Assembly (NCBI RefSeq): GCF_000021945.1
Contig: NC_011831.1
Coordinates: 310,001 to 374,000 of the forward strand
DNA from: Chloroflexus aggregans DSM 9485
Lineage (GTDB): Bacteria; Chloroflexota; Chloroflexia; Chloroflexales; Chloroflexaceae
Length of the DNA: 64,000 bases
Direction of reading: 5' to 3'
Shown here: positions 47,112 through 58,914 of the stretch, in pieces
Numbering within the stretch: the first letter of the stretch is position 1
Layout: every line of letters starts with the position of its first letter
Notes under the pieces: model-generated
The model's database searches: none
Told to the model about the DNA's origin: nothing
What the model saw: the letters and a program-made list of their open reading frames with translations, nothing else
Translations under genes and position numbers: made by a program

Positions 47112-48431
47112 ATGGCTGTTATTCAAAACGTGAAAGGAATGCGCGATCATCTGCCGACAGATATGATGCTGCGGCAGTATATCGTCAGTACGCTTACCAG
47201 TATCAGTGAAGCACACGGCTTCGAGCCTTTACAAACCCCGATTATCGAGTATGCCGAAACGCTTGAGGGTAAGCTTGGCGAGGATGAAAAGCTGATTTAC
47301 CGCTTTGAAGATCATGGTGGGCGTCGGCTGGCGTTACGCTACGATCAGACCGTACCGCTTGCCCGTGTGACTGCCCAATATGCCGGACAGTTGACATTAC
47401 CCTGGCGTCGCTATGCCTACGGGCCAAGCTATCGGGGTGAACGGCCCGCGCGCGGACGCTACCGTGAGTTCTACCAGTTCGATATCGATATCGTTGGTAG
47501 TGCCTCGCCGTTGGCCGATGCCGAGATTGTCGCAATGCTGTGTGAAGCGCTTTCGGCACTCGGCTTTCCTGACTTTGTGACCCTGCTCAATCACCGCCAG
47601 ATTATCGGTGGGATTGCGCGCGTCAGTGGTCTCTCAGAGGAAGCTGCCGGTGGGGTCTATCGCGCCATTGATAAGTTCGACAAGATCGGTGTCGCCGGCG
47701 TCCGTAACGAGTTGCTGAAAGCAGGCGTCGATACCGGTGCTGCCGATCGGATTCTCGAACTCGTGCAGATCGACGGCTCCGCCGACGAGGTACTCGCGGC
47801 ACTCGCCCAACGTCTCGCCGACGACGAGCGGGCGGTCGCTGCGATTGCCAATCTGCGTTCAATCCTTGACAGTTTGGCTGCGATGGGGGTGCCGACCGAT
47901 CAATACCGCGTTGCGCCACGTCTCGCCCGGGGTCTCTCATACTATACCGGTGCCGTTTTTGAGGCAATCACCCCGCACTGGCCAGAAGGTTCACTGCTCG
48001 GTGGTGGTCGGTATGACGATCTGATCGGTCTGTTCGCCGGACGTAACATCCCCACGGTAGGCCTTGCGTTCGGTATCGACCGTCTCCACGATGTGATGCT
48101 CGAACTCAACCTTGGCCCACGCCCGCGCACAACTGCGGTCGCGTATGTCACCCTGTTTAGTGGAGATTACGTCGCAGCCAGCCTCGCTTTGGCCGCCGAA
48201 CTGCGCGCTGCCGGAATACATACGCTCATCGCACTCGAACCGGGCAACCTTGGTAAGCAATTCAAAGAAGCCGATCGCCGTGGGGTTCGCTTTGCTCTCG
48301 TCCTTGGTCCCGATGAGCTAGCACGTGACGAAGTGGTGGTGAAAGATCTCCAGCGTGGTGAGCAACGTTCACTCCCACGTGCCGCCGTTGCCGGTTTGCT
48401 GGCCGAAGCACTTACAGAACAGGCGCGCTAA
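47112..48431 (+). CDS. hisS: Histidyl-tRNA synthetase
   Basis: Class II synthetase of 439 residues that charges tRNA-His. It starts VIQNVKGMRDHLPTDMM; motif 2 is LALRYDQTVPLARV and RYREFYQFDIDIVG, the His-binding block is ARGLSYYTGAVFEA, and motif 3 is LLGGGRYDDLIGLF. A C-terminal anticodon-binding domain follows. It lies 61 bases behind rlmN. The IS-like element starts directly after its stop codon. Confidence 0.96.
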   Translation: MAVIQNVKGMRDHLPTDMMLRQYIVSTLTSISEAHGFEPLQTPIIEYAETLEGKLGEDEKLIYRFEDHGGRRLALRYDQTVPLARVTAQYAGQLTLPWRRYAYGPSYRGERPARGRYREFYQFDIDIVGSASPLADAEIVAMLCEALSALGFPDFVTLLNHRQIIGGIARVSGLSEEAAGGVYRAIDKFDKIGVAGVRNELLKAGVDTGAADRILELVQIDGSADEVLAALAQRLADDERAVAAIANLRSILDSLAAMGVPTDQYRVAPRLARGLSYYTGAVFEAITPHWPEGSLLGGGRYDDLIGLFAGRNIPTVGLAFGIDRLHDVMLELNLGPRPRTTAVAYVTLFSGDYVAASLALAAELRAAGIHTLIALEPGNLGKQFKEADRRGVRFALVLGPDELARDEVVVKDLQRGEQRSLPRAAVAGLLAEALTEQAR

Positions 48432-48520: not shown

Positions 48521-48763
48521 ATGAAACAGATGTACCACTCCAACGATCCGTGCGTGTTGCTCATCAACTCCCACCTGGTCTGGTGCCCCAAGCGGCGACG
48601 GAAGATGGTAGGTGGCCCCCGAACAACACGCCTGGAAGAACTGATTCGTGAGACGGCGCCAGAGCTGGCGTGTGCGATGGTGGCGCTTGAAATCATGCCC
48701 GACCATCTCCCTCTGGTTGTTTCGGCAACGCCGCAAATCGAAGCGCAGCGCACACGCGGATGA
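48521..48763 (+). pseudogene. tnpA: TnpA (HUH transposase) with internal deletion
   Basis: Only 80 residues instead of about 135-150. The N-terminal half is recognisable: SHLVWCPKRRRKMVGGP, EELIRETAPELAC and LEIMPDHLPLVVS. The HUH motif, normally MPDHVHLLV, has lost its second His. The sequence then jumps from SATPQ directly to IEAQRTRG, which matches the usual C-terminal end of the family, so the middle with the catalytic Tyr has been deleted in frame. It cannot catalyse transposition. Confidence 0.8.
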
Positions 48764-49902
48764 AGACGTTTTTCTCCAAGTTACGTCCGACACTTGCTCA
48801 AGTGGCTTGTCTTTCTGAGACGGTGGAAACCTGCCGCCAACGCTACAACCACGCTTTGAGCGAGCGCAAGACTGCCTATCGAGAACGTGGCGAGTCCATC
48901 GGCTTTGTGCGCCAATGCGCCAGCCTGCCTATGCTGAAACGGGAGGTGCCGCATCTGCAGTGTGTCCACTCCCAAGTGGTGCAGGATGTCGTGCGTCGAG
49001 GAGACCGCGCGTTTCAAGCGTTCGTTCGGCGGGTGAACGCCGGTGAAAAAGCGGGGTATCCGCGCTGCAAAGGGCGGGGCCGGTACGATAGCTTCACCTA
49101 TCCCCGGTGGGGCAACGGCGTCAAGCGGGAGCAGGGACGGCTCGTCCTCTCCAAAATCGGTGCTATTCGCCTGCACAACGATCGCCCGGTTGAGGGCACG
49201 CCAAACATCTGTATCATCGTTCGCAACGCGGATGGATGGTACGCACACATCGTGTGTGCTGTTGCACCATCACCACTCCCGCCACCTGGCAGGTCGGTAG
49301 GGATTGATGTTGGACGTGAGTCGTTTGCAACGCTGTCGAACGGCGTGCAGATTGCCAACCCGCGCTCCTATCGCGCCGCCGAACGCACGCTGAAACAGGC
49401 ACAACGACGGCTCGCTCGTCGCGTGAAGGGCAGCAATCGCTCCCGTAAGGCTCGCACGTTGCTTGCGAACGCTCACCTGAAGGTCAAGCGGGCGCGACGG
49501 GATTTCGCCCACACAATCGCCCGCGCACCGGTCAATGAGGATGACCATATTGCGGTTGAAAAACTGAACATTCGGGGGATGGTACGGAACCATCCCCTTG
49601 CCAAATCGATCTCAGACGCCGGATGGGGTATCGTTCTGAATATCCTGCTCGCCAAGGCTGCACGTGCTGGGCGAGTCGTGGTGGCAGTCAACCCTGCCGG
49701 AACGTCGCACATATGTGCGCACTGTGGCGAGTCCGTTCCCAAACGACGTGCCGTTCACTGGCACTCCTGCCCGTATTGTGGTTGTGAATTGCACCGCGAT
49801 CATAATGCTGCGCTTACTATCCTAAAGAAGGGCGGGGGCGCCGCCTTCGGGGAGGCTTTGCCGTTGGGCGGGCCGCAGAACCGAGAACCCCACAGGCTTT
49901 AG
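48760..49902 (+). CDS. tnpB: TnpB, RNA-guided endonuclease of the IS200/IS605 group
   Basis: Protein of 380 residues. The N-terminal part shows LRPTLAQVACLSETVETCRQ, VHSQVVQDVVRRGDRAFQAF and GYPRCKGRGRYDSFTYP. The RuvC triad looks complete: Asp in VGIDVGRESFATL (near residue 185), Glu in IAVEKLNIRGM (near 266) and Asp in LHRDHNAALTIL (near 350). A zinc finger CAHCG-CPYCG lies between the last two. The family is known to cut DNA guided by an RNA made from the element's right end. The ATG overlaps the tnpA stop (ATGA). It appears intact, although its transposase is not. Confidence 0.9.
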   Translation: MKTFFSKLRPTLAQVACLSETVETCRQRYNHALSERKTAYRERGESIGFVRQCASLPMLKREVPHLQCVHSQVVQDVVRRGDRAFQAFVRRVNAGEKAGYPRCKGRGRYDSFTYPRWGNGVKREQGRLVLSKIGAIRLHNDRPVEGTPNICIIVRNADGWYAHIVCAVAPSPLPPPGRSVGIDVGRESFATLSNGVQIANPRSYRAAERTLKQAQRRLARRVKGSNRSRKARTLLANAHLKVKRARRDFAHTIARAPVNEDDHIAVEKLNIRGMVRNHPLAKSISDAGWGIVLNILLAKAARAGRVVVAVNPAGTSHICAHCGESVPKRRAVHWHSCPYCGCELHRDHNAALTILKKGGGAAFGEALPLGGPQNREPHRL

Positions 49903-51261: not shown

Positions 51262-51384
51262 ACGTGTCATGAGGTTCACCTTACTGTTCGTTGACACGTT
51301 GCAACTTGTTTTCAGTCTATCATACAGATACACTATTCCCAGATATTACCTTCTGTGCCGTGTTCATCATTGAGGACAACCGCA

Positions 51385-52455
51385 ATGACGACTCCCATTC
51401 CCAGCGATTTCCAGCGTCGCTATCTCGAGGCAATGCTCCACGGCAACGGACGGGACGCGGATCGTGTGGTCGAACAGGCACTGGCTCAAGGGATCAACGC
51501 GCCACGCATCTACCTCGACATCTTCCAGCCCACCGCTTACGAGATCGGCCGACTCTGGCAAGTAAATCGGATCAGCGTTGCGCAAGAACACCTCGCCACG
51601 GCGATCATCGAACGACAGATGGGTGAACTACATCCCTATTTTCGGCCCCGCCTGCGGCGTCAGCGCCGAATCGTGCTCGGCTGCGCACCTGATGAATGGC
51701 ACCGTGTTGGTATCCGCATGGTGGCCGATTTTTTTGAAGCCGAAGGTTGGGACGTCATCTACCTTGGTGCAGCCGTACCGATTCCGGCGTTTGTCGATGC
51801 GATCAAGATCGCCCAACCCGATCTCGTCGGTATCTCGGCGGCAATGGTGTTTCATCTGCCACACGTCACCCATCTGGTGCGAGCATTGCACGCCGCCGAT
51901 CTTGATGGTATTCCGCTGATGGTTGGAGGATTGCCGTTTGTCCGTCAACCCGGCTTACACCGCGCGCTCAACATCCACCTCAGTGCGCCCAACGCTGCTG
52001 CGGCAGTTGCTGCGGCTAATCATGCGTTTCCCGTTCCGATCCGCGTACCATCGGCGCCGCACAGCAATGCCGCACTGCATGCCGTACAAACCCTCCATCG
52101 TCAGATCATCGACCGTGCTACGACGCTCGCTCTGCAGCACCAGGATGAGCTACAGCTTCTTGGTGCGCAAGCGCCCACGATAATCGCAGCCGGATACGAG
52201 TTTGTCACGCGCACCCTGGAAGCAGCCCTCGCTACCGGGCAACCGGAACTGCTCGACGAACAGATACGCTGGGGAAACGAACGACAGCTCTACGATGGGG
52301 TTATGCCTGAACATATGCTACACCGCCTCGAAATCTACGACGCAGTGATCCGTGAATTGCTACCGGCTGAGCTGGTTGAGATCGTCACCGTGTATACAGA
52401 ACGCATGATCGCCTTACAACGTTCGCTGATCGGAAACAGCACTGCATCAGCCTAG
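51385..52455 (+). CDS. Cobalamin-binding sensor with CarH-like W-x9-EH motif, no DNA-binding domain
   Basis: Soluble protein of 356 residues. Residues about 1-85 resemble the helical cap of B12 photoreceptors and contain LWQVNRISVAQEHL, matching W-x9-EH. Residues about 90-210 are a B12-binding Rossmann fold: CAPDEWHRVGIRMVADFFEA, WDVIYLGAAVP, PDLVGISAAM and PLMVGGLPF. The His in DEWHRVG is the probable lower cobalt ligand. The C-terminal about 130 residues are helical and unrecognised; no helix-turn-helix is seen. In CarH the same motif senses light through adenosylcobalamin, so this may be a light or B12 sensor that acts by protein contact. The ATG at 51385 has GAGGA eight bases upstream. 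Confidence 0.82.
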   Translation: MTTPIPSDFQRRYLEAMLHGNGRDADRVVEQALAQGINAPRIYLDIFQPTAYEIGRLWQVNRISVAQEHLATAIIERQMGELHPYFRPRLRRQRRIVLGCAPDEWHRVGIRMVADFFEAEGWDVIYLGAAVPIPAFVDAIKIAQPDLVGISAAMVFHLPHVTHLVRALHAADLDGIPLMVGGLPFVRQPGLHRALNIHLSAPNAAAAVAAANHAFPVPIRVPSAPHSNAALHAVQTLHRQIIDRATTLALQHQDELQLLGAQAPTIIAAGYEFVTRTLEAALATGQPELLDEQIRWGNERQLYDGVMPEHMLHRLEIYDAVIRELLPAELVEIVTVYTERMIALQRSLIGNSTASA

Positions 52456-52575
52456 TACTAACGGCCGGCGGGAGAAAATGCCTATTGTTACGGTAATCTG
52501 ATACCAATATGATAGAATTGTTGTACTACGCTACTAAATGATCGATTGCACTTGTTGTTTGACAAAGGGCACATT

Positions 52576-55500
52576 ATGTCACAACACTCGTCAGTCCTCA
52601 TCCCACACCTATACCGAAGAAAGCGGGGCATTATCTCGCTCATCCTTGCTCTCCTTATAGTGAGTACACTCTTCAGCGCAGCAATAACCGTATTTGCCGC
52701 CGGTACGTTGACCGTGCATGTCTACACCGATACCAATCGCAACGGTCTGGACGATGATGGGCCGGGCAATGGCATCGCCGGTGTACTTGTGTCGGTCTAT
52801 ACCGCCGATAGTGTGCTGGTTGGATTGAATACAACCGACAGCAACGGCGATGTGGTGTTTCCGGCCCTACCTAATGGCGAATACCGGATCGAGGTTAGCA
52901 ATCTTGGCGCACGGGTGGTGTCGGTGCCGGGGACAGGCAATGCCGGGCTACTCTCGTTTGTGACCATCTCCGGCAGTGCAGTGACCCAACGGGTCGGTCT
53001 GCGTCCGGCTACACCAACCGATAATGATGCACCGATCGGGACCCGCAGTGTCGTGGCGCGGGTGTGGGATGATCGCGACGCCGACGGTGTCCAAGATGCG
53101 GGTGAACCGGGACTGAGCGGTATCCCGGTTCAGTTAATCGATAGTCTCGGCAATTTGGTGGCCGGCCCGGTGAACACCGATATCCAAGGCCGGGCTATTT
53201 TCAACACCGCCCCAACCGGTGCCGGGTACCGATTGCGGATTCTCGCAGCTAATATTCCCGGCGGTTATATCTTGACACAAGCCTTTGTCAACGATGGCGC
53301 CCCTAACCCCGGTATCCGTGACTCGGAGGCCGTCTTGGTAGGCGGGAACGTCGAAGCAACATTACCGAATACCGGCCGCGGTGTGAATGTTGATAGCATT
53401 GATATTGGCTTTGCCCGTGGCGCCGTGAGCGGTTTCGTCTGGCGTGATACGAACCGTAATGGTCTATGGGATCCCGGCGAGCCACGACTCAGCGGTGTCC
53501 AAGTCCAATTGCTCAATACCACAACTTCCACCGTGGTAGACACTACCACCACCCGCCAGCGGCTCGGCTCGAGCGAGCCGTCTGACGGGGGCATTTTTGT
53601 CTTCACCGGCATACCACTTGGTGCGACCTATCAGGTGGTGATCCCGGTGAGCCAATTCGCTTCGGGTACTACGTTGTTCGGCGCGGCAAACTCGCCAAAC
53701 GCTAGCGGTGGTGATGTTGGGGCGCCGGATGGTGTACCGAGTGGTGATGTAACCGGTCCCTCATTTTCTCTCACCTCAGGCAGTAATACGCGCAACGACC
53801 AGCTCTTCGGCTTTTACAAAGGTGTCGTCGGTGATTACGTTTGGCTCGACGATAACGGGAATGGTTCACCGGATAGCGGTGAAATTGGTGTCAATGGTGT
53901 CATCGTCTTTGTTGATGACGGTCGCGGCAGTGGAAGCCCGAATAACGGGATTCGTGATGGTGGTGAGATCTCTACCGTTACTACAAATAATCCCAGCAAC
54001 GGCCAACCCGGCTACTTCTCGTTCGATGATCTGCCATTAGGAGTGAGCTACCGAATTGTCCTCGACGAGAGTAATTTCTTACCAGGTGGTGCGCTGGTTG
54101 GGCTGGGTAACTCAACCGGTACACAGGCTACGAACGGCAACGGGAATACCTATGTATACCGTGATTCAATCAGTCTAAACACCGCATCTCCAGAAGATAC
54201 GAACGTCGATTTTGGCCTCACGCGGGTGACAATTGGCAATTTCGTCTTCGAGGATGCGAATGCCGACGGCAGGTTCAGTAGCGGTGAACAACCTATACCC
54301 AACGTGACAGTCCGCACCTACCGCGCTAGTGATAATCTCCTCCTTGGAACAGCGGTAAGCAATAGTAGCGGTATCTATACTATTCCCGGCTTACCTGCCG
54401 AAGAAATCTATGTCACGTTCGACATCTCAACCGCGGGGGCCGGATACATTGGTTTTGTCGGTAGTATTGCTCCTTCGGGTACCACTATTGACCCATCTGA
54501 AACAACGTATACTAACTATAGCGACTTAACCGCCAATGTTGGCGGCGATGTTTGGCGTACCGACTCATTTACGCCCACTCCGGGTACGTCGTATACCGGG
54601 ATTGACGCTGGGTTCTATCGTCCGGCAAAGATCGTGGTACGGCTCTTTGGAGAAACGGTAAACATTAATAACACACCTGAGACTGGTGAACCCGGTATCG
54701 GTGGCGTGGCAGTGACCGTCACTAACACAGTTACCAGTGAGACGACGACTCTCACGACCAATAACGTGAGTGGTGATGCGATCTTTGAACTTCCCCCCGG
54801 ATCGTACACTGTTACTGTACCGACCCCAAGCGGCTATCTACCATCACCTGGCAATAGCGGCAGCATCAGCTTTCCGAACCTGCTCAGCCAGAATGTTGTC
54901 AATGCCGATTTCGGCTACTACCGACCGGGTCAAATCAGCGGCGTGACCTTCTTCGATGCCAACAAGAATAGCACCGCCGACAGTGGCGAGCCGCGTATGC
55001 GGAATGTCACGGTCGAATTACTCGATTCGTCAAGTAGTGTAGTTACTACGACCACAACTTCGTCATCCGGCACCTATAGTTTTACGAATCTACTCCCCGG
55101 TACCTACACAGTACGCTTCACCAACCCTGATACCGGCAACTATGTCTTCATTACCGGCGGCGATAGTGATGTGACCACTGGAGGTGCCGTAGCTACGAGC
55201 AGTACAGCCACCCTTGCCGTACCGTACAACGGTTCGCTGACCAACATCGATGCCGGTTTCCGTGGCCAAACCACGGTGAGCGGGCGGGTCTTTGAGGACA
55301 ATAATGGTGATAATCTACAAGATGCCGGTGATACCGATTTGACCGGTGCAACGGTAACCTTAACGGTAACGGCTAACTTACCGAATCTCGTTGCTACATT
55401 CCCGGCAACGATTACTACCACGCCGCCTAACTATCAATTCACCGAATTGCCCGGCGGTAATACCGGCACTATTACCTATACCATCACCTTTGCCCCACCA

Positions 55501-58500
55501 ACCGGTGGCTACATCGCCAGTGATGCCAATGTCGGCGGTGACGATGCGATTGATAGCGACGGCCCGACCGTCACCGTGACCGGGCCGGCACCCGGTAGTA
55601 CACTTGACTTCGATCAAGGTTATTACCGCAATGTGACCATCACCGCCCGCGTCTTCCGTGAGCCGTCGGCCGGACGTAATAATCAGTGGGATAGCGGTGA
55701 AAATGGCATTACCGGCGTGCAGGTCTGGCTTGAACGACTCGATAGCACTCGCGTGCAGACCGCCACGACAACAACCGGTGGCTTGGTGACCTTCACTGTC
55801 CGCCCCGGCTCGTATCAGCTCAACGTTGATGAAAGCTCGCCGGCCTTGAGCGGGTTGCAGCCATCGTCCGGCTCAACTGCGGCGATACCGGTTGTCGGTA
55901 GTCCGCTGAGTAGTGGTGGTAGTTCACTAACCGAGACAAGCCCGCCGGGGACAACACATGTCTTTGGTTTCTTCACCTTCGGCACCGTCAGCGGACGGGT
56001 CTTCTTTGACGGGACAACCGGCCCGGCCGACAATTTGGCGACCGGTGAGCCGGGTGTGAGCGGCGTCATGGTACAGTTGTTGGATGCCGGCGGGAACCCG
56101 ATTAGTGGGAAGACGGCGACAACCGACAGCAACGGAAATTTCACCATCACCGATGTTGAGGGCGGTACCTACCGGCTTGAGTTTGTTAATCCCGCCGCTG
56201 CCAACTTCAGCTTCGTTGCCGCCAACACGGGCGATAATAACGTGGCTACAATTGTGAGCGACAATGGTCGCACCGATACCTTCACCGTCACCGACGGACA
56301 AACTACGACCCGCAATGCAGCCATCATCGGGCGGAGTACCGTGAACGGTGTGACGTTCGTTGACCGGGCCTACGACGGGCAACGTGTGGGCGATCCGGGG
56401 TTGGCAGGTGTGACCGTAACGCTCAACGCAACAATCAATCTATCGAACGTGAGTACAACAATTACGCGCACGACCACGAGCGATAGCAACGGTATCTTCA
56501 GCTTTACCGGTTTACCGGGTGGTACCTCAACGAGCGAGGCCAGCTTTAGCCTCACCTTCACTCCACCGTCGGCGACACCACACTATCAGGTGACTCTGGC
56601 CGATCAGGGTGATAATGCGACCGACAGCGACGACACAGCCGAGCTGACGAATCAACCGATCGGTATCAATACTACGGCGAGCCGTGACCAAGGGTATTAT
56701 CAAAACGTGACCATCCGTGCGCGCGTCTTTAACGAGACGGTGACGATTAACAATAGCTTCGAGAGCGGTGAGCCGGGTCTACGTGCAGTCTCGGTTAGCG
56801 TCAGTGGGCCGGTATCAGGATCACAGTTTACCGACCTTTCCGGGATCGTTACCTTCAATGGCCCACCTGGAACGTACACCTTCACCGTACCTACCGATCC
56901 ATCAGGGTATCTACGCTCACCGGGCAATAGCGGTACGGCTAGCACCGGTCTGGTGCTGAGCGGTCAAACTCCTGATCCGGTCCCGTTCGGGTATTACCGG
57001 CCGGCTCAGATTAGCGGCACCGTGTGGTTCGATGTCAACCGTAACGGCCTGTTCGATAGCGGTGAACCGGGGATGGAGAACATCAGTGTTACCTTGAACG
57101 GTAACAGTAGTGGTCCTCGCCCACCGGTTCCTACTGATGACAGCGGTTCATTCACGATTACCAATATCGAACCGACCGGCTTGACCAATACGTCGTACCA
57201 GCTCTGCTTCGCATTACCCGCCGGCTTCGCCTTTACCAGCCTTGGCGATACGTTAACCACCGATAACAACAGCGATGCCAACCTTACAACCGGCTGCACT
57301 ACCGCCTTCTCGGTGGCATCGAACGCCAATATCACGTACCTCGACGCCGGTATGGTTGGTACGCTGTCGATTGGCGATCTGGTATGGGAAGATATAAACG
57401 CGAACGGTATCCAAGAGAGTGGTGAGCAGGCGCTTGATGGGGTAACAATCACGGTCACTGTAGCCACCACCGGTAACGTGATTAATGCAACCAATCCGTC
57501 ATTCACCTTTAGCACCACCTCAACCACGGCTACCGGCCTCGCACCAAACTATACGATTGACAACATCCCACCGGGTAGTACGGTAACGATTCAATCGGTG
57601 AGCCGGTTCGGTTACGTGTTGTCACCGGCGAATCAAGGGAGTAACTCGTCTGTCGATAGCAATGCGATTGGTGAGAGTATTACGCTCACGACCAGTAACA
57701 CCACGATTGACTTTGGTCTCTACCGCACCACTGCAATTGGCAATCTGGTCTGGTTCGATGCCAATGGCAATGGGCTGCGTGATACCGGTGAGCCGGGGAT
57801 TGGTGGGATCACGGTTGCCCTCCGTAATAGCAGTGGGGCCACGGTCACAACAACCACGACCCTTGGTGATGGCAGCTATGCCTTTAACAATGTGACACCG
57901 GGTACCTACTCGCTCCAGATCACCCTGCCGGCCGGGTATACCACGACCAACAATGGCAGTGGTTCTGTCACCGTCGATGATGACAACGACGTCCGTACCG
58001 ATGGCACAACCGCTAATTTCACCATCCTAAGCGGACAGGCAATAGGCAGTGTCGATGCCGGCCTCCGCGGTATTGGTGGGGTAAGCGGCATTGCGTGGTT
58101 CGACACGAATGAGAATAACCAACGTGATCCGGCAGAGACAGAACGGCTCGCCGGGGTACAGGTGACGATCACCTATACACCAACCCTACTGGCTGCCTAT
58201 GAGCAAACGGTGCAGACGACAACTGACACCAACGGGGCATACAGTATCACCGGTTTGCCACCAGGTCAGGTCACCGTCACTTTCACCGACCGGAAAGGGT
58301 ATCTACCGGCCCAACCGAATATCGGGGATGACGCAACCGACAGTGATGGTCCTGTGGTGACATTTACCCTGACCGCCGGCCAGCAAGCCGTCGTCGATAT
58401 GGGTTATTACAAACGGGTACTGGTCTATTTGCCGATGACCATCGTTCAGATACCGCCAGACCTGATTGTCACCGTGCAAGCGACCCCAACCAGTCCAAAT

Positions 58501-58914
58501 AAGAATACACCGGTCACGTATCGCGTCACGGTGACGAACATCGGACGCGAACCGGCCGGTAATTTCTGGGTCGATCTCTATGTCAACCCGTCGCGACCAC
58601 CGAACGTCAACGAACGCTGGAACGATCTCTCGCGCCAAGGGTTAGCATGGTTCTTCGACGGTACCCTCCAGCCCGGTGAAAGTATCACCCTGATCAGCCT
58701 GCCGCGCAGTACGACAAACCCGCTTGGCTACGATCCGGGTACCAGTTCGCCAACCTGGAATGGACGCCTGCCTCCGGGACGGAATACCATCTACGTCTAT
58801 GTCGATAGTTGGAACCGCAGTATTACCGGCGATGTGGTGAGTCCGTTTGGAGCCGTCGAAGAGGTCAACGAGACCAATAATCGTGCAGAAATTATGATTA
58901 TGGTCTCGGAATAG
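52576..58914 (+). CDS. Giant secreted protein with SdrD/Cna-B-like repeats and a C-terminal CARDB domain
   Basis: Protein of 2112 residues. A signal peptide is at residues about 15-45 (KRGIISLILALLIVSTLFSA, cut near VFAAG). Sixteen beta-sandwich repeats of about 100-150 residues follow, each opening like VWFDxNxNGxxDxGEPG, whose Asp/Asn-rich loop could bind calcium, and continuing GVxVxL and YxFxxLxPGxY. From repeat six on, the repeats form three-domain supermodules. The last about 150 residues resemble a CARDB adhesion domain (LIVTVQATPTSP, VEEVNETNN). There is no C-terminal anchor or sorting signal. It is probably a surface or matrix fibre for adhesion, sheath formation or filament contact. 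AAAGGG precedes the ATG at 52576. Confidence 0.88.
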   Translation: MSQHSSVLIPHLYRRKRGIISLILALLIVSTLFSAAITVFAAGTLTVHVYTDTNRNGLDDDGPGNGIAGVLVSVYTADSVLVGLNTTDSNGDVVFPALPNGEYRIEVSNLGARVVSVPGTGNAGLLSFVTISGSAVTQRVGLRPATPTDNDAPIGTRSVVARVWDDRDADGVQDAGEPGLSGIPVQLIDSLGNLVAGPVNTDIQGRAIFNTAPTGAGYRLRILAANIPGGYILTQAFVNDGAPNPGIRDSEAVLVGGNVEATLPNTGRGVNVDSIDIGFARGAVSGFVWRDTNRNGLWDPGEPRLSGVQVQLLNTTTSTVVDTTTTRQRLGSSEPSDGGIFVFTGIPLGATYQVVIPVSQFASGTTLFGAANSPNASGGDVGAPDGVPSGDVTGPSFSLTSGSNTRNDQLFGFYKGVVGDYVWLDDNGNGSPDSGEIGVNGVIVFVDDGRGSGSPNNGIRDGGEISTVTTNNPSNGQPGYFSFDDLPLGVSYRIVLDESNFLPGGALVGLGNSTGTQATNGNGNTYVYRDSISLNTASPEDTNVDFGLTRVTIGNFVFEDANADGRFSSGEQPIPNVTVRTYRASDNLLLGTAVSNSSGIYTIPGLPAEEIYVTFDISTAGAGYIGFVGSIAPSGTTIDPSETTYTNYSDLTANVGGDVWRTDSFTPTPGTSYTGIDAGFYRPAKIVVRLFGETVNINNTPETGEPGIGGVAVTVTNTVTSETTTLTTNNVSGDAIFELPPGSYTVTVPTPSGYLPSPGNSGSISFPNLLSQNVVNADFGYYRPGQISGVTFFDANKNSTADSGEPRMRNVTVELLDSSSSVVTTTTTSSSGTYSFTNLLPGTYTVRFTNPDTGNYVFITGGDSDVTTGGAVATSSTATLAVPYNGSLTNIDAGFRGQTTVSGRVFEDNNGDNLQDAGDTDLTGATVTLTVTANLPNLVATFPATITTTPPNYQFTELPGGNTGTITYTITFAPPTGGYIASDANVGGDDAIDSDGPTVTVTGPAPGSTLDFDQGYYRNVTITARVFREPSAGRNNQWDSGENGITGVQVWLERLDSTRVQTATTTTGGLVTFTVRPGSYQLNVDESSPALSGLQPSSGSTAAIPVVGSPLSSGGSSLTETSPPGTTHVFGFFTFGTVSGRVFFDGTTGPADNLATGEPGVSGVMVQLLDAGGNPISGKTATTDSNGNFTITDVEGGTYRLEFVNPAAANFSFVAANTGDNNVATIVSDNGRTDTFTVTDGQTTTRNAAIIGRSTVNGVTFVDRAYDGQRVGDPGLAGVTVTLNATINLSNVSTTITRTTTSDSNGIFSFTGLPGGTSTSEASFSLTFTPPSATPHYQVTLADQGDNATDSDDTAELTNQPIGINTTASRDQGYYQNVTIRARVFNETVTINNSFESGEPGLRAVSVSVSGPVSGSQFTDLSGIVTFNGPPGTYTFTVPTDPSGYLRSPGNSGTASTGLVLSGQTPDPVPFGYYRPAQISGTVWFDVNRNGLFDSGEPGMENISVTLNGNSSGPRPPVPTDDSGSFTITNIEPTGLTNTSYQLCFALPAGFAFTSLGDTLTTDNNSDANLTTGCTTAFSVASNANITYLDAGMVGTLSIGDLVWEDINANGIQESGEQALDGVTITVTVATTGNVINATNPSFTFSTTSTTATGLAPNYTIDNIPPGSTVTIQSVSRFGYVLSPANQGSNSSVDSNAIGESITLTTSNTTIDFGLYRTTAIGNLVWFDANGNGLRDTGEPGIGGITVALRNSSGATVTTTTTLGDGSYAFNNVTPGTYSLQITLPAGYTTTNNGSGSVTVDDDNDVRTDGTTANFTILSGQAIGSVDAGLRGIGGVSGIAWFDTNENNQRDPAETERLAGVQVTITYTPTLLAAYEQTVQTTTDTNGAYSITGLPPGQVTVTFTDRKGYLPAQPNIGDDATDSDGPVVTFTLTAGQQAVVDMGYYKRVLVYLPMTIVQIPPDLIVTVQATPTSPNKNTPVTYRVTVTNIGREPAGNFWVDLYVNPSRPPNVNERWNDLSRQGLAWFFDGTLQPGESITLISLPRSTTNPLGYDPGTSSPTWNGRLPPGRNTIYVYVDSWNRSITGDVVSPFGAVEEVNETNNRAEIMIMVSE

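Follow-up and report, generated by a model that had tools for sequence, protein, structure and literature searches.

A photocobilin-type protein of Chloroflexus aggregans with a remade bilin site and a candidate two-component partner

Photocobilins, described in 2024, are photoreceptors that bind both adenosylcobalamin (AdoCbl) and biliverdin (PMC10979010); in this class light breaks the Co-C bond and alters the oligomer state. According to that report the biliverdin of SasPcob is contacted by Asp270, by Trp296 and, from the other monomer, by His137; AbDPcob, with a His for Asp270, retains biliverdin binding at an occupancy of about 20% and is still called a photocobilin, and a stand-alone photocobilin acts on a cyclase through contact (PMC10979010). 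In the related CarH photoreceptors the position of His132 leads to a bis-His light state, SasPcob has a Gln at the corresponding position, and light-responsive cobalamin domains carry a signature, as given by SignatureFinder, of GxxW, EH, GxxH and GxxxP (PMC11796333). BBAG-2 globins, which work with separate B12-binding proteins, display an RGMC motif and bind biliverdin without a CxRD motif (PMC10151467). Our literature search found no paper on a Chloroflexus B12 photoreceptor, and a word search of the main text of PMC10979010 returned none of "Chloroflex", "heme oxygenase", "histidine kinase" and "two-component".

The gene studied here lies in a stretch of 64,000 nucleotides from the genome of Chloroflexus aggregans DSM 9485, a photosynthetic bacterium of hot springs (NC_011831.1, positions 310,001 to 374,000; the window, to whose first letter local coordinates refer). 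It occupies 51385..52455 on the + strand, as do all its features given below, and encodes 356 amino acids, with the stop codon inside these coordinates. The ATG at 51385 is favored as the start over an in-frame GTG at 51355, given the same start position in homologues and a GAGGA eight bases 5' of it (51372..51376), read from the sequence as a probable ribosome-binding site. Pfam recognizes both halves of a B12-binding domain, the four-helix B12-binding_2 half at residues 11-81 (51415..51627, E 1e-16) and the Rossmann B12-binding half at residues 95-189 (51667..51951, E 1.5e-21), and finds neither a helix-turn-helix nor a kinase domain in the chain. The claim of the sequence-only reading that the protein lacks an output domain is thus correct for the chain itself.

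The same reading had pointed to an adenosylcobalamin photoreceptor motif, W-x9-EH, and to a cobalamin loop, and both are real. W58 and E68-H69 (51556..51591) are separated by exactly nine residues, and the loop E104-W-H106-R-V-G (51694..51711), part of a D-E-W-H-R-V-G stretch in the Rossmann half, contains H106, a candidate lower axial ligand. W58, E68, H69, E104 and H106 are invariant in all 15 full-length homologues, far above chance. Q59 and G109 are likewise invariant, Gln occupying in every homologue the position of CarH His132. When these sequences are compared with the published light signature (PMC11796333), GxxW, EH and GxxxP are present in 15/15, whereas GxxH is present by half: the G is found in none of the 15, position 103 being D, E, N or K.

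Downstream of the B12-binding domain, a new helical domain had been proposed. Our results point instead to the phycobiliprotein/photoglobin fold, and the domains follow one another as in the stand-alone photocobilin described before. Pfam gave no match for the C-terminal domain, and a single-sequence search of the PDB produced weak matches only, among them an allophycocyanin at E 0.77. A profile of 11 C-terminal sequences (A2), however, matched 52 PDB sequences when E values up to 10 were admitted; 50 of these are phycobiliproteins or their derivatives, the best match being an allophycocyanin (E 7.3e-6). The suggested structure prediction was carried out with AlphaFold on the domain alone, from two sequences (pLDDT 88.2, pTM 0.84), and yielded an allophycocyanin-like fold. 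VIA-align placed allophycocyanin chains at the top (9wg7_S2, Z 17.7, rmsd 1.6 A over 122 residues), with photocobilin 8j2x at Z 16.1 (rmsd 1.9 A, 119 residues); Foldseek ranked phycobilisome proteins first at E 2.6e-3 and a TM of about 0.76, none reaching 0.001. From the profile match and these model comparisons, residues 227-356 (52063..52452) are predicted to form a phycobiliprotein-like globin, and since the domain modelled alone matches allophycocyanins, we rejected a new C-terminal fold. A further profile comparison places the globin of this lineage closer to allophycocyanin than to SasPcob or to split globins, a hint only, as it involved two allophycocyanin sequences and a truncated SasPcob. 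The globin is under purifying selection: in the only unsaturated pair of homologues (G007 and G010) the C-terminal part has a dN/dS of 0.074, compared with 0.026 in the B12 part, synonymous sites being near or at saturation in comparisons with the C. aggregans gene itself.

Over its whole length the protein resembles photocobilins most closely. A phmmer search with the single protein returned SasPcob first (E 3e-25, residues 14-317), and a family profile of 12 sequences (A4) matched the photocobilins 8j2x (E 8.4e-39) and 8j2y (E 4.8e-24) through the globin, whereas in the CarH-type 8jbs the B12 part alone was matched. Five photocobilin chains also ranked first in Foldseek with a full-length model, a poor one built from two sequences (pLDDT 54.8) and used for ranking alone. 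With SasPcob (8J2W/8J2X) and AbDPcob (8J2Y) it shares the order B12 then globin, W-x9-EH and ExH, and with SasPcob in particular the Gln after the Trp and the stand-alone chain; the cyclase domain of AbDPcob is missing. The suggestion of a light or B12 sensor in a phototroph is therefore backed by homology, the best solved relatives being proven photoreceptors and the host a member of Chloroflexus, as is its same-genus relative G011. Judged from sequence, we consider the protein probably a stand-alone photocobilin-type sensor, one that would bind AdoCbl and respond to light. A canonical CarH-type regulator was ruled out: the AdoCbl-binding domain is homologous and the motif the same, but the N-terminal MerR DNA-binding domain is absent and Gln59 stands in place of His132, so that no bis-His light state is expected.

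C. aggregans has a CarH-like MerR-B12 protein of its own, with a W-H-x8-EH motif (L002:1414-2388, − strand; about 1167200 on G000:C1). Its gene adjoins a phytoene synthase-like gene, and a counterpart beside L055:6449-7516 matches SQS_PSY.

The bilin site is where the protein departs from the described photocobilins. The counterpart of SasPcob Trp296, which touches the corrin, is kept in all 15 homologues as W296, but the other two of the three biliverdin contacts are missing throughout. His137 is replaced by Ala, Ser or Asp in 15/15, and Asp270 by Gly in 15/15 according to MAFFT, at the position that aligns with the Asp of the allophycocyanin CxRD motif. The latter equivalence should be read with some caution, since in the hmmsearch alignment a small insertion falls near Asp270; both alignments agree in showing no conserved Asp or Glu there. 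CxRD itself, at I267-A-A-G270 (52183..52194), reads x-x-A-G in all 15, with A269 and G270 invariant, and the globin domain of the C. aggregans protein contains no Cys. Because two of the three biliverdin contacts are missing, we file the protein as a variant and not as a biliverdin-binding member of the photocobilins. Compared with the BBAG-2 systems (PMC10151467), a B12-binding domain is likewise paired with a bilin-type globin, but the two are fused in C. aggregans and the RGMC motif is absent.

A source of bilin is equally hard to find. The C. aggregans genome gave no match to heme oxygenase (PF01126), to the phytochrome PHY domain or to PF10615, which we take to be part of HugZ-type enzymes; each search was positive in at least one control genome. 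PF01126 is above cut-off in 27 of the 82 genomes of the order, yet in only three of the 15 full-length carriers (G002, G032 and G040), so that most carriers have kept the gene although no bilin source is apparent. Since the bilin site is remade and no biliverdin-making enzyme is evident in the host, we infer that the globin has probably lost its bilin and that the protein most likely works with B12 alone.

The strongest competitor to this reading is a full two-chromophore photocobilin, in which the globin would bind biliverdin or another linear tetrapyrrole, supplied by mat cyanobacteria or by an enzyme that escaped recognition, with the protein responding to both red and green light. Supply of bilins by cyanobacterial neighbors is possible, the fold is that of bilin proteins, the Trp296 counterpart is retained, and three carriers do have heme oxygenase. 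Moreover, AbDPcob binds some biliverdin without Asp270 (PMC10979010), and BBAG-2 globins bind it without CxRD (PMC10151467). Against this stand the loss of the Asp270 and His137 counterparts in all 15 homologues, the 12 carriers in which no heme oxygenase was found and the lack of a PHY domain match in the host, and we regard a second chromophore as unlikely.

Taken as a whole, the data are probably best explained by a stand-alone, photocobilin-type green-light receptor using AdoCbl that has kept its globin cap, has likely lost the bilin and has its output in trans. In the dark, the four-helix bundle and the Rossmann fold would hold AdoCbl between them, H106 lying under the cobalt while W58 and E68-H69 surround the adenosyl group; the cofactor would probably keep a head-to-tail dimer together. 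By homology, green light would break the Co-C bond, the adenosyl group would leave and the dimer would open. Because Gln59 replaces CarH His132, the light state is expected to be ligated by water or hydroxide, as in SasPcob. The globin would probably cap the corrin edge through W296, which lies in a conserved stretch from Q293 to G305 (52261..52299) where Q293, W296, R300, Q301, D304 and G305 are invariant in all 15 homologues. The signal would most likely pass by contact to a separate protein.

We searched 82 genomes of the order and found 15 full-length members, the host included. Two further genomes hold partial copies: in G009 the copy is cut by a contig end (residues 1-45, 73% identity), and in G001, a 9.3-Mb assembly with 7% contamination, the copy ends after the B12 domain and has no globin. 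When the A2 profile was run against the phylum at E 1e-4, 14 of 400 genomes had the C-terminal domain: 12 in the host's family and two in a distant family. Related arrangements occur nearby, as split B12 and globin gene pairs in related genomes of the order (L091-L097) and as a globin-B12 fusion with the opposite domain order (L024, G062). In the distant Chloroflexota family, MerR, B12-binding and phycobiliprotein-like globin domains are found in one chain (L069:451-1842, + strand, 464 aa; L070:1483-2961, − strand, 493 aa), that is, a CarH-like regulator carrying the same kind of cap. On the − strand of G016 (L054:3712-8071) the gene of a B12-binding protein stands in a row with one whose product has up to three globin-like domains and with another ORF of signalling type.

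In the host, and in those Chloroflexus contigs that are long enough, the sensor gene is flanked by a DUF58 gene on one side and a giant SdrD_B gene on the other. The latter is the giant surface protein noted as a neighbor from the sequence, confirmed here as an ORF at 52546-58914 (+) with 16 SdrD_B stretches and an in-frame ATG at 52576; it has a CARDB match close to its end. At 48760-49902 (+) a transposase-like gene, IS605 TnpB-type by eye, separates hisS (47112-48431) from the DUF58 gene. The sensor gene is absent from G006, presumably C. aurantiacus, and from G008, where the DUF58 and giant genes are still adjacent, their matched parts about 260 and 290 bases apart, and no remnant of the sensor gene was found between them. 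The G008 counterpart of the giant gene is split across two frames and has additional repeat copies. As these two genes adjoin without the sensor in both genomes, and as other neighbors flank it outside Chloroflexus, the giant SdrD_B protein and the DUF58 neighbor were each ruled out as its sole partner. G006 and G008 lack both the sensor gene and the response regulator described below, which makes these close relatives ready-made comparisons.

A better candidate emerges from co-inheritance. In three genera (G030, G032, G002) a response regulator and a PAS histidine kinase gene adjoin the sensor gene, divergently or convergently, and the regulator is in tandem with the kinase wherever its surroundings were read. 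The host has the pair as well (kinase at G000:C1:1071049-1072248, regulator at G000:C1:1072196-1073119), unlinked to the sensor gene, as it also is in 11 of the 14 other carriers whose flanks were read, some on short contigs. At E 1e-60 or better, a cut-off chosen after inspection of the list, in which the next matches are at 1e-37 and weaker, the regulator is present in 18 of the 82 genomes: 14 of 15 carriers versus four of 67 others. Both genes thus occur in 14 genomes and neither in 63; co-inheritance is broken by G025, with the sensor gene only, and by G001, G009, G023 and G039, with the regulator only. The association is significant in Fisher tests over the order (p 2e-11) and within the family (p 1.1e-6), both of which ignore kinship, and in a permutation within seven genera that partly allows for it (p 0.038; 0.018 with G009 counted as a carrier and 0.0095 with G009 and G001). 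The B12-only copy of G001 has the same type of kinase beside it, which suggests that the B12 domain is enough for the link, although this assembly is contaminated. We conclude that output probably occurs in trans through a separate protein, for which the PAS histidine kinase encoded with the response regulator would be the best candidate; action by contact has its precedent in the stand-alone photocobilin and its cyclase (PMC10979010). The C-terminal region of the regulator has only a sub-cutoff bDLD3 match. Beside the host pair, on the other strand, lies a gene for a receiver-HD_5 protein (L127:4050-7431), an architecture that we take to be of the kind found in cyclic-di-GMP phosphodiesterases.

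The neighborhood also bears on whether light is the signal at all. The protein could instead sense AdoCbl supply or act as a corrinoid carrier, with light irrelevant in vivo: carriers of corrinoid methyltransferases are among the matches of its B12 domain (MtgC-type, E 3e-15), and any AdoCbl protein is to some degree light sensitive. However, W-x9-EH is present in 15/15 homologues, proven photoreceptors are matched over the full length, and a DNA photolyase gene directly precedes the sensor gene on the same strand in genus g11 (G024-G027), making a role unrelated to light improbable; the G001 copy follows a DNA photolyase gene too. A globin pocket adapted to a different ligand, such as a porphyrin or (bacterio)chlorophyll precursor, which would let the protein read B12 and light jointly with pigment supply, would account for the purifying selection on the globin (G007-G010) and for the invariance of A269, G270, R276, Q293, W296, R300, Q301, D304 and G305 in all 15 homologues, but this conservation may serve the corrin cap alone and the globin looks dispensable in the contaminated G001 assembly, and we consider such a change very improbable.

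In conclusion, the sensor of C. aggregans is a photocobilin variant that merits testing, on account of its remade bilin site, the lack of an evident bilin source and the two-component pair inherited along with it. Tentatively, Chloroflexus and its relatives may harbor a photocobilin lineage that has dropped the bilin, retains the phycobiliprotein fold to cap the corrin and works as a detachable subunit with which a two-component system senses light; a soluble PAS kinase and its regulator would read AdoCbl photolysis, and the light responses would include DNA photolyase. Responding to light is a necessity for an anoxygenic phototroph, and the search of C. aggregans for a phytochrome PHY domain found none. 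If true, a B12-only photocobilin would offer a natural way of testing the contribution of the bilin in this recent class of photoreceptors, and a case of the phycobiliprotein fold being used without a bilin. The co-inherited kinase pair, if it is indeed the partner, would bear on how stand-alone photocobilins signal.
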